Assembly (NCBI GenBank): GCA_947372355.1
Contig: CANBTI010000013.1
Location: 1-51,651, forward strand
DNA: 51,651 bases
Source: Bdellovibrionales bacterium
GTDB lineage: Bacteria; Bdellovibrionota; UBA1018; CAIMNF01
Reading direction: 5' to 3'
Program-made: the position numbers and the translations under genes
Notes under the pieces: generated by a model
Told to the model about the DNA's origin: nothing
Seen by the model: only the letters and a program-made list of their open reading frames with translations
The model's database searches: none
Shown here: piece after piece, positions 6,641 to 18,834 of the stretch
How the letters are laid out: every line of letters starts with the position of its first letter
How positions within the stretch are numbered: the stretch's first letter is position 1

Positions 6641-7921
6641 ATGACAAAGAATAAATCGCCTAAAAGTAACACTGATTACATGAACGAATTCAATACAGAT
6701 ATGGATGAGGAGTTGGAAACGACGACCTCAAAAAAGGATGATGATTTTGCATCCATGTTTTCTGAATCATTGAAGGGTGCTGAAAAGAAACTCAGAGTAG
6801 GCGATAAGATTCGTGGAAAAATTTTAAATCTTGGTTCTGAAGAAGTGTTTGTCACTACAGGCACTCGTCATGATGGAATCATGAGCCGCCGTGATCTTCT
6901 CGATGCGGAAGGAAATTGCCAATACAAAGTGGGCGACATTACCGAAGTTTATGTGACGATGGTGAAGGGCAGTGAAATTCGCCTTTCTAAAAATGCTACT
7001 GATCGCAATATGGCTGAAGATTTTAAAAGTGCTTATGAAAGCAATCTTCCCATCCAAGGACGCATTGTTGAAGTTTGCAAAGGTGGAGTTCGTGTAAACA
7101 TCAAAGGTAAAATGGCATTTTGCCCAATCAGCCAAATTGATTCTAAACACATTGAATCGGCAGAAGAGTACGTGGGAAAAAGTTTTGAATTTAAAATTAC
7201 AGAGATCACTGAAGGTGGAAAAAACATCGTGGTTTCTCGTCGTAAACTTCTCGATGCGGAACGCGAAGTGGGAACCACGTCTTTCTTATCTGAAACCAAA
7301 GACGGCGATATTGCCACTGGCCGTGTCACTCGTTTTGAACCCTTCGGAGCTTTTATTGAACTTGCTCCTGGAGTAGACGGACTCGTTCATATTTCTGAAA
7401 TTTCTTGGTCTCGCATCGCTGATCCTGCAGAAGTATTAACCTTGGGACAAACCGTAACCGTGAAGTTGTTAAAACGTGAAGTTCTCAATGGACGCGCAAA
7501 AATTTCTTTATCCATCAAACAAGTGACTCCACGTGAAGATAAAGCGGTAGATGCGGCAAAAGATTCAGCCCCTAAAAAAGATGATCCATGGGCAAAACTC
7601 AGTGTGGGACAAACCTTCACTGGAAAAGTAAATCGTAAGGAGCCTTATGGTTTATTTGTTCAACTTGAACCGGGCATTACAGGTTTACTTCATAAATCAC
7701 GTACCAATGATGCAAAAGATTTCCATTTTGAAAAAGTGCGCGTGAACGATGAAGTGGCAGTGCAAATCGTAGAAATCCGTTTGGGCGAACGCCAAATTTC
7801 ACTAGGTTTGCCTGGGGATGCGAGTGAAGACGACTGGAAAACTTCTTATAAACAAGATTCAACAGCTTCTATGGGCACACTAGGTGGCCAAATGGCTGCA
7901 GCTTTGGCGAAGAAAAAATAG
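6641..7921 (+). CDS. S1 domain protein, ribosomal protein S1-like with four domains
   Basis: The 426-residue product has an acidic N-terminal extension (to about residue 50) and four consecutive S1 RNA-binding domains: about 53-118, 127-195, 215-285 and 310-380. The third and fourth have the strongest signature (FEPFGAFIELAPGVDGLVHISE and KEPYGLFVQLEPGITGLLHKS, here quoted in part). Canonical S1 of proteobacteria has six domains, so this is a short S1-like protein that may bind mRNA on the ribosome or act as a second S1 paralogue. The first ATG has no clear Shine-Dalgarno; an internal ATG at 6680 is an alternative. It is flanked by repeat copies 3 and 4. Confidence 0.88.
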   Translation: MTKNKSPKSNTDYMNEFNTDMDEELETTTSKKDDDFASMFSESLKGAEKKLRVGDKIRGKILNLGSEEVFVTTGTRHDGIMSRRDLLDAEGNCQYKVGDITEVYVTMVKGSEIRLSKNATDRNMAEDFKSAYESNLPIQGRIVEVCKGGVRVNIKGKMAFCPISQIDSKHIESAEEYVGKSFEFKITEITEGGKNIVVSRRKLLDAEREVGTTSFLSETKDGDIATGRVTRFEPFGAFIELAPGVDGLVHISEISWSRIADPAEVLTLGQTVTVKLLKREVLNGRAKISLSIKQVTPREDKAVDAAKDSAPKKDDPWAKLSVGQTFTGKVNRKEPYGLFVQLEPGITGLLHKSRTNDAKDFHFEKVRVNDEVAVQIVEIRLGERQISLGLPGDASEDDWKTSYKQDSTASMGTLGGQMAAALAKKK

Positions 7922-15166: not shown

Positions 15167-15293
15167 ATGGTTCATTATTGCTACCAAAGTATAACGCAAT
15201 GCAAACCTATTAATATTCCTTAAGTTTTTTCGTGTTACTCTTGGCACGTTGGTTGCTGATCCAATATTGAATTCTTTTTTCAAGGGGGGAAAT

Positions 15294-16256
15294 ATGAATC
15301 AGCAAAAAATCTTATTAACAATACTACTTTTAACCGCTTTCGGATGTGGATCAAAAGATCAGCCGGTAAGTTCACGTTTGCCAGAATCATCACCGATCAC
15401 CGCTGATCGTGGTACTGAACAACAAACCATTCAACTAGGACAAGCGATCACTCAAATCGAAATGAACCATAAAGAAATGGAAACCATTTTTGAAACAAGG
15501 GATGTTCCTTCTACTTGTACCCGCGTTGTTCAAAGTGGAACTCGTACTGAGTGTCACACTGAAAATGATCGCCAATGTAGAGATGTTTCATTTCCTGTTT
15601 GTAGAAATGAATCGGAAAATGTTTGTGTGAATGTTCCTGATCGCGTTTGTCATACGGAGCAGTTTCCAGTTTGCCAATCTATTCCACGTAGAGTTTGCGA
15701 ATCAGTTCAAAAGTGCGAAACCGTCAATGATCAAGTTTGCCATGGAACTCCTCCAAACCAATCTTGCACCACTGTTCCTCGTAGAGTTTGTCATGCGGAA
15801 CAAGCATGTCATACGGAGAGCGATCAAGTTTGTCATAATGAATCTCGTGAAAGATGTGAGCAAGTGAATCGTCCTGTTTGTCACACAGAAACTCACCAAT
15901 CTTGCCATAGTGAAACCAGACAAGAGTGTACCAATGTTCCTCGTCAGTCTTGCATGGAAGTTCCGGTAACCACTCAGCAACAATATCCTTGTATGCAGCC
16001 TCAGCAGGTTCCAGTGGGTGAGCGTTTGAGTCTTCACACTCTTGCTCAGGTACGAATCAATTTACTGAATCCAAGAAACTTAGATGTTTCTCAAGATCAA
16101 TTGATCGTAACCATGAATCAAGGCATGATTTCAGCGGTAGCGAGAAGTGCGAAGGGGATTCAATACCAAATTCGCGAAGTTTCTCACTATGTAAACCGCA
16201 TCAGTGACACTGAAGAAGTGATCACCGAAGTTCTTGAAGTAACAGCAATGTACTAG
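15294..16256 (+). CDS. Lipoprotein with cysteine octad repeats
   Basis: The ATG at 15294 follows an AAGGGGGG Shine-Dalgarno. The signal peptide (MNQQKILLTILLLTAFGC) ends in a somewhat atypical lipobox with C at residue 18. The central part, about residues 78-235, contains 20 cysteines spaced almost strictly every eight residues (C-x7-C, with two C-x5-C steps). The repeat unit resembles C-H-T-E-x-x-x-V or C-x-x-V-P-R-R-V. The C-terminal 90 residues have no cysteines and look like a beta domain. Expected location is the outer membrane or periplasm. I know no characterised bacterial family with this pattern; disulfide ladder or metal binding are both possible. Confidence 0.8.
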   Translation: MNQQKILLTILLLTAFGCGSKDQPVSSRLPESSPITADRGTEQQTIQLGQAITQIEMNHKEMETIFETRDVPSTCTRVVQSGTRTECHTENDRQCRDVSFPVCRNESENVCVNVPDRVCHTEQFPVCQSIPRRVCESVQKCETVNDQVCHGTPPNQSCTTVPRRVCHAEQACHTESDQVCHNESRERCEQVNRPVCHTETHQSCHSETRQECTNVPRQSCMEVPVTTQQQYPCMQPQQVPVGERLSLHTLAQVRINLLNPRNLDVSQDQLIVTMNQGMISAVARSAKGIQYQIREVSHYVNRISDTEEVITEVLEVTAMY

Positions 16257-18325: not shown

Positions 18326-18359
18326 CAAAAAAAAAGACCCGAGACAAATGCTCGGGTCT
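18326..18359 (-). terminator. Intrinsic terminator of the minus-strand RNA
   Basis: On the minus strand AGACCCGAG (18359-18351) pairs with CTCGGGTCT (18343-18335) across a 7-nt loop. A run of nine U's follows at once (18335-18327). Nine paired bases plus a U-tract make this a strong terminator, located just upstream of the FliG-like start at 18313. Confidence 0.92.
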
Positions 18360-18656
18360 AAACGTCATTAAGACAATTTATTTAAGGGGGGGGGTAGATC
18401 GTCGCCAATGAAGTATATCATTTTTAGGCTCCCTAACCGTCCATTCCCTATGATTTAATATTTAATTGTATTTTCACTAGCTGTAGCTGATCAACCTGGC
18501 CAGGCTGAAGACTACAGTTCACGAGCTTCGCTGATATCTAGCGCCTCACTCGTGCCTATCTTACCGTCGGAACCTCACACATATTCGAACAATTTTATCG
18601 TCTTTTGCGTTAGATGCCAGCTCAGTTGCTGCGTTTATTTTCATTCAAGCCCCCTT
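18327..18656 (-). ncRNA. Candidate structured non-coding RNA, about 320-330 nt, unassigned
   Basis: No reading frame of useful length occupies this stretch on either strand, while it is bounded by a consensus promoter and a strong terminator. The predicted 5' end (AAGGGGGC) pairs with CCCCCCCCCTT near the 3' end (plus-strand 18650-18659 with 18381-18390), closing the molecule. Inside are a two-part hairpin (CACGAG 18520-18525 with CTCGTG 18549-18554, enclosing CGCT/AGCG), a stem CTGTAG/CTACAG (18481-18486 with 18512-18517) around the palindrome CCTGGCCAGG, and a small hairpin AATGA/TCATT (18407-18422). Consensus elements of tmRNA, RNase P RNA, SRP RNA and 6S RNA were looked for and not found. 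It may alternatively be a long leader for the FliG-like gene. Confidence 0.72.
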
Positions 18657-18662
18657 AAAACT

Positions 18663-18691
18663 AGTATCTCATCTTCAATTGTTAGGGTCAA
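18663..18691 (-). promoter_or_regulatory. Sigma-70 promoter of the candidate RNA
   Basis: On the minus strand TTGACC (18691-18686) and GATACT (18668-18663) are spaced by exactly 17 bp. The expected start point, about 7 nt downstream, falls at the first bases of the closing stem of the RNA. Confidence 0.75.
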
Positions 18692-18767: not shown

Positions 18768-18804
18768 AAAAAAATAAAAAAGCCGTTCATTTTCATGAAC
18801 AGCT
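18768..18804 (-). terminator. Intrinsic terminator of the cyclophilin gene
   Basis: On the minus strand AGCTGTTCAT (18804-18795) and ATGAACGGCT (18790-18781) form a 10-bp stem with one G-U pair and a GAAA tetraloop, followed by a U-rich tract (18780-18768). It sits about 30 bp after the stop codon of the peptidyl-prolyl isomerase gene. Confidence 0.92.
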
Positions 18805-18834
18805 TCTCTATATTTGATTTTAGATTTAAATAAA

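Follow-up and report, generated by a model that had tools for sequence, protein, structure and literature searches.

We identified a bacterial RNA family that is well supported by the comparison of relatives and had not been described before. One copy is located on the minus strand at 18326-18691 of the window, the whole stretch of 51,651 nt analysed here. The family is so far known only from one order of uncultivated Bdellovibrio relatives. Its core consists of two hairpins, P1 and P2, the latter with an inner hairpin, and a short open reading frame (ORF) carrying the motif GPP[R/K] is found in front of P1. The covariation of the hairpins, the selection on GPP[R/K], the fixed spacing of its codons to P1 and the preservation of palindromes in both apical loops are well supported, too. 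Ribosome pausing, dimer formation, a coupling of both and a purpose of the RNA are what we infer from these patterns. As best explanation we propose, at about even chances, an autonomous hybrid of mRNA and structured RNA, on which a ribosome would pause at GPP against P1 and which would form a homodimer by kissing loops. In the window lies a derived paralog, in which the ORF is retained and GPP is lost. Its features are, from 5' to 3' of the RNA:

18663-18691, minus strand: sigma-70-like promoter TTGACC-17-GATACT, with TG before the -10 element
18650-18656, minus strand: AAGGGGG, which is a Shine-Dalgarno-like site and also forms the 5' side of the closing stem (most copies of the genus have CGGAGG)
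18561-18644, minus strand: 27-codon ORF, MKINAATELASNAKDDKIVRICVRFRR-stop (stop codon 18563-18561 included)
18564-18575, minus strand: place of the GPP[R/K] codons of the family, 21 nt before P1; here AGG TTC CGA CGG (RFRR)
18520-18554, minus strand: hairpin P1, CACGAG (18554-18549) with CTCGTG (18525-18520), a covarying helix
18533-18538, minus strand: self-complementary hexamer GAUAUC in the apical loop of P1, proposed kissing-dimer site
18481-18517, minus strand: hairpin P2, CUGU (18517-18514) with ACAG (18484-18481) and an inner hairpin at about 18507-18492, with covariation
18498-18501, minus strand: self-complementary tetramer GGCC in the apical loop of P2
18397-18433, minus strand: 3' domain of the genus, GGGAGCC ... 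GGCGACGAUC, GCC pairing with GGC (helix 7)
18386-18394, minus strand: run of nine C that forms the 3' side of the closing stem, a feature of the genus (helix 1)
18326-18359, minus strand: intrinsic terminator, hairpin 18359-18335 and T run

A preliminary description of this stretch had proposed an own promoter, a closing stem, several internal stems, a strong intrinsic terminator and a nine-C run near the 3' end. All of these were found. TTGACC was detected at the promoter place in 10 of 12 copies compared; taken alone the promoter is weak, as the scanned 2 kb contain 7 promoter-like sites with 4.5 expected. The closing pair AAGGGGG (18656-18650) and CCCCCTT (18390-18384) is part of the MFE structure of the window copy. 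This fold (-92.8 kcal/mol, z -2.27) was reached by 2 of 100 shuffles and is a modest result by itself. Both the closing stem and the C run characterise the genus and, judged by eye, were not present in the inspected copies of other genera; the C run is also missing from copy G002b. Variation on both strands of the closing stem was seen only in the window copy and in G003a. Since these are close relatives, the covariation of this stem is weak. By a strict definition, 29 of 55 copies have a terminator. In the window, the cyclophilin gene is followed by another strong terminator-like hairpin (18774-18811, minus strand), which lies directly ahead of the RNA promoter; thus, the RNA is insulated from this gene.

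With blastn further copies were found in 8 other genomes out of 58, together with a second copy in the genome of the window. For the 12 genomes of the window's genus, blastn matched one copy in 11 and the covariance model matched in all 12. Over the 55 genomes of the order the number of matched genomes increased from 28 (model R1) to 36 (R2) and 37 (R3), the latter holding 56 copies. Counts per copy refer to the 55 rows of alignment A6; the 56th copy (G030) is part of no covariance model and was used as prospective test only. The remaining 18 genomes of the order were unmatched, many assemblies being incomplete. Model R3 gave no match in three other genomes of the class. Model R2 was applied to 368 genomes of the phylum and matched 36, all within the order, and 0 of the 313 others, an absence that holds for the stricter filters and the 10 candidates per genome used in searches of more than 40 genomes. 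One genome of another family (G047) holds a copy (L024) with 95% identity to that of genus member G002 and with the same neighbours. Contamination is likely, transfer being the alternative, and therefore G047 was not counted as independent evidence across families. In another genome (G037, locus L141) two tandem copies about 450 nt apart were observed upstream of smc.

The absence of a known RNA consensus, as described before, was confirmed with Rfam 15: at the gathering threshold neither the window nor 20 loci with further copies gave a match. With the cut-off relaxed to E<=10, the two top rows covering the stretch align mostly to the terminator hairpin. No account of the family was found in the literature searched, the scope of which held few subscription papers. 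A phage origin was considered and set aside, as no phage record was matched by blastn, a test that an integrated or unlisted phage would escape.

Conserved pairing in relatives, which the preliminary description had named as a check, was shown for the core hairpins. Within the genus (19 sequences) 96.7% of the cells are paired, and 69 double changes were counted, compared to 21.2 after shuffling and 9-19 after sliding. For the order-wide core the alignment of 55 sequences, which was fitted to the covariance model, gave 94.9% paired cells and 208 double changes, compared to 78.1 (shuffled) and 25-53 (slid). One of five order-wide measures was weak: 15 pairs were changed on both sides, with 12.5 in shuffled alignments (19/500 shuffles).

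The stretch had also been called non-coding, and this part has to be revised. A Shine-Dalgarno-like GGGGG and the 27-codon ORF are present, and in every copy with an existing 5' end (G011 is cut by the contig end) an ORF of 17-36 codons was found, the start of which has a purine-rich site upstream. GPP, mostly as GPP[R/K], is common to 52 of the 55 copies and is missing only from the window copy, G003a and G007a. In all 52 its codons are located exactly 21 nt before P1, with the position of P1 taken from the same covariance model that spans these codons. The prospective copy fits this rule, as its ORF MKEAKRFKVYSKLLELKVREHGPPKAK-stop (ending HGPPKAK) has GPP 21 nt before P1. Of 49 copies measured, 48 have the stop codon 3, 6 or 9 nt ahead of P1; the exception is a misread frame in G028. 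The bases between GPP[R/K] and P1 (positions 12-17) are unconserved, and both linker sequence and stop position vary. Hence, with GPP at fixed distance and a varying stop, the kept spacing is that of the GPP codons to P1 and not that of the stop codon.

Selection acts on the amino acids GPP[R/K], because third bases are free and Arg and Lys are exchanged. The first and second bases of the GPP codons are near-fixed, any of the four letters occurs as third base of Gly and of the first Pro, and the following codon is Arg (CGN) in 37 and Lys (AAR) in 15 of 55 copies. For the ORFs of the genus pN/pS was 0.68 in frame, compared to 1.26 and 1.11 in the shifted frames, and pN was below pS in 118 of 136 pairs; the shifted frames hold stops in 16/17 and 14/17 cases. 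A hairpin over the GPP codons does exist in the genus, but the R/K exchange and the free third bases favour the peptide as cause of conservation. Programmed frameshifting was rejected, too, as the -1 and +1 extensions after GPP are mostly short and variable. The second Pro codon (18569-18567 in the window) shows a bias of its own: its third base is A in 35 and G in 20 of 55 copies (CCA/CCG, window-type variants included), unlike the first Pro codon with CCC or CCU in 47 of 55 rows. A tRNA preference is possible.

The apical loops of both hairpins carry palindromes. At one fixed offset from the 3' end of P1 the hexamer is a strict palindrome in 41 of 55 copies and a palindrome including G-U pairs in 49. 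Six copies (AGACTC three times, TGTACT, GACGCC and GGACCT) are non-palindromic even with G-U, and the prospective copy has the non-palindromic GGACCT as well. Regarding distinct hexamers, 7 of 16 are strict palindromes and 12 of 16 are palindromes with G-U, with shuffled means of 1.07 and 3.50; none of 20,000 shuffles was as high. The offset was chosen after seeing the sequences, a choice that the shuffles leave uncorrected; the other offsets, which serve as control for it, gave 0-2 distinct strict hexamers. The P2 tetramer is palindromic in 55 of 55 copies (GGCC 49, GAUC 4, CGCG 2).

Bases next to each other in a loop are unable to pair with one another in the same molecule, and thus the palindromes point to a second molecule. 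An intramolecular partner of the hexamer is unlikely, since only 4 of 55 copies contain the hexamer a second time. Paralogs in one genome can differ in their hexamer, each being self-complementary or nearly so (G003, G025, G027, G031, G032); therefore, homodimers fit better than obligate heterodimers. A symmetric loop with a palindrome preserved through sequence change, which is the criterion for homo-oligomeric RNAs, was found here. We regard this as good evidence, short of proof, that the palindromic loops form homotypic kissing contacts.

The preliminary description had placed the RNA at a fliG-like and a cyclophilin gene. This is correct for the window copy, which as a derived paralog is not typical in its place; more copies are found upstream of smc than anywhere else. 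The gene smc follows on the same strand within 3.2 kb in 28 of 55 copies. Among 80 smc loci, gathered by a scan for the smc protein because sequence patterns had matched few known copies, 29 contain the RNA, which in 28 of them lies upstream of smc and in the same orientation. A gene with a FliG_C domain follows the window copy and G007a; for G003a, the third copy without GPP, the downstream side is ended by the contig end. The window genome also contains a canonical sister copy (G000:C45, near 6918-7300, locus L014) between a divergent family-2 glycosyltransferase gene and smc. Its ORF end is of the GAGPPR type, its loops are GAUAUC and GGCC, and the P1 hexamer is thus the same in both copies. 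Elsewhere in the window (15249-16256, plus strand) a protein of 335 residues with many Cys-rich CR/CH repeats is predicted, for which no Pfam match was obtained.

That many copies precede smc suggests a possible link to chromosome segregation and leads to the main rival explanation, a cis-acting leader of smc. A ribosome on the ORF would set readthrough of the terminator, or the smc site GGGGG would be masked, a role of the C run in the genus. The window copy and others away from smc would be leaders that were displaced or have decayed. In agreement with this, the gap between terminator and smc (75-148 nt) contained no promoter-like site above shuffles in 9 copies of the genus. Furthermore, the Shine-Dalgarno-like GGGGG of smc, complementary to the C run, is present in 12 of 12 copies of the genus, with a background of 16 among 151 ORFs in the loci of the genus, some of these being smc itself. 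However, smc has GGGGG in front of it also for three copies from outside the genus (G054a, G050, G012), and by eye the C run is missing from the inspected copies of other genera. RNA and smc are several kb apart at L164, L170 and L180, and the copy of G016 is divergent beside smc and points away from it. For at least 11 of 55 copies the ORF that comes next downstream lies on the opposite strand, and ORF, GPP and structure are kept nevertheless. In this respect the RNA appears autonomous. We consider a cis-acting leader unlikely.

According to our preferred explanation, the window copy would be transcribed from its own promoter to its own terminator into an RNA of about 320-330 nt, which would serve as small mRNA and as structured RNA at once. 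Its short ORF would be translated, and in canonical copies the ribosome would pause once the nascent chain ends in GPP. Because the GPP codons are 21 nt before P1, the paused ribosome would abut this hairpin. By analogy to arrest peptides, P1 would begin 12 nt after the A-site codon. About 12 nt after this codon the mRNA exits the ribosome. The self-complementary loops of P1 and P2 would join two RNA molecules as homodimer by one or two kissing contacts. Pausing and dimerisation would affect one another, and pausing might need P1 or the dimer. The window copy should still dimerise, since ORF, P1, P2 and both palindromes are kept, and it should not pause at GPP, since GPP is lost. The system is compact and testable, as changes of codons, spacing and palindromes predict separate outcomes.

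Two further readings are both rather improbable. The RNA may be mainly a gene for a small protein, a peptide of 17-36 residues with conserved C-terminus that, once released, would act in trans, with a folded 3' part that only stabilises the message. The selection on GPP[R/K] at the peptide level and the purifying selection on the ORFs of the genus agree with such a gene. But the N-termini are free in length and sequence while the spacing of GPP to P1 is fixed, conservation is higher for the structure than for the peptide, and the window copy, G003a and G007a keep the structure without the motif. Alternatively, the RNA might be a device for pairing ribosomes, with one paused ribosome per RNA and the RNAs joined by the P1 and P2 loops. 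The state of translation would then control dimerisation, or dimers would tether two ribosomes, and paralogs without GPP, such as the window copy, would be partners without ribosome.

Least probable is a trans-acting base-pairing regulator with secondary ORF, in which the C run or the loops bind target mRNAs, e.g. at GGGGG sites: the C run of the genus does complement the smc site, and dual-function small RNAs with short ORFs are known (RNAIII, SgrS), but the C run was not seen outside the genus and is absent in G002b, and strict self-complementarity across changing hexamers is unexpected for target pairing.

Regarding known RNAs, a resemblance to abundant housekeeping RNAs had been proposed. 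This found no support, as the family is unmatched in a third of the genomes of its order and in the other genomes of the phylum searched, and separate housekeeping RNAs were detected. With tmRNA the family shares a similar length, a closing stem of 5' and 3' ends and a short reading frame, but its reading frame begins with a start codon behind a Shine-Dalgarno-like site. A tmRNA, with tRNA-like domain and tag reading frame, was detected in this stretch neither by ARAGORN nor by Rfam, and tmRNA was found elsewhere in 5 of 6 genomes of the order tested. The exclusion by a separate tmRNA rests on these five relatives, because the draft genome of the window shows none above the cut-off. Similarly, no match to 6S RNA (RF00013) was obtained in the window, and a separate 6S RNA above the cut-off was detected in 6 of 6 genomes. 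Dual-function small RNAs such as RNAIII/hld and SgrS combine a short ORF and a structured part in one transcript. No sequence or structure shared with them was shown, and here the peptide motif is tied to a hairpin by its spacing. The merRNA and the attack-phase sRNAs of Bdellovibrio bacteriovorus come from the same phylum and, in the accessible part of their description (PMC3627812), likewise look abundant and have own promoters; merRNA, however, holds a c-di-GMP riboswitch, whereas no Rfam match was obtained here.

RAPP-like arrest peptides (ApdA, ApdP, SecM; RQH family) resemble the family in their short ORF and C-terminal x-(A/G)-P-P. In the accessible part of PMC12992588, the C-terminal motifs RGPP and RAPP are reported to arrest ribosomes, RGPP strongly, the Arg-less AAPP not, and Arg-to-Ala versions of RAPP-type motifs are arrest-defective. 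The residue before GPP is T in 23, A in 10, V in 9, H in 2 and others in 11 of 55 copies, with neither R nor Q. As no copy has Arg at this position, the family does not show the motif of the RAPP-like class (R/Q/H-A/G-P-P). It also differs by the lack of a secretion signal, judged by eye, and by the fixed spacing to a conserved hairpin. A co-directional downstream gene, as found behind such arrest peptides, gives a mixed picture here, with smc behind 28 of 55 copies and an opposite-strand neighbour behind at least 11. An arrest-peptide survey included TGPP in its query motifs, as far as given in the accessible text of PMC10987492. The excerpts consulted from the literature on polyproline stalling yielded no passage on GPP.

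Few natural RNA homodimers are backed by evolutionary evidence. For OLE, GOLLD and ROOL symmetric kissing loops were inferred from co-changing palindromes, comparable to GGCC, GAUC and CGCG here. The accessible text of PMC12286853 describes switches of the L9.3 palindrome of OLE between GGCC, GAUC and AGCU, which were used to support dimer contacts, and published excerpts apply the signature of changing, yet self-complementary loops to homo-oligomers of OLE and GOLLD. In contrast to these RNAs, the family is about 330 nt long with a short ORF, occurs in other taxa and has no Rfam match at the gathering threshold. In the literature searched we found no other case of a homodimer signature paired with a nascent-peptide motif at fixed distance. 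If our explanation is true, this would be a new kind of coupling between ribosome and RNA, in a phylum of predatory bacteria with few known structured RNAs.
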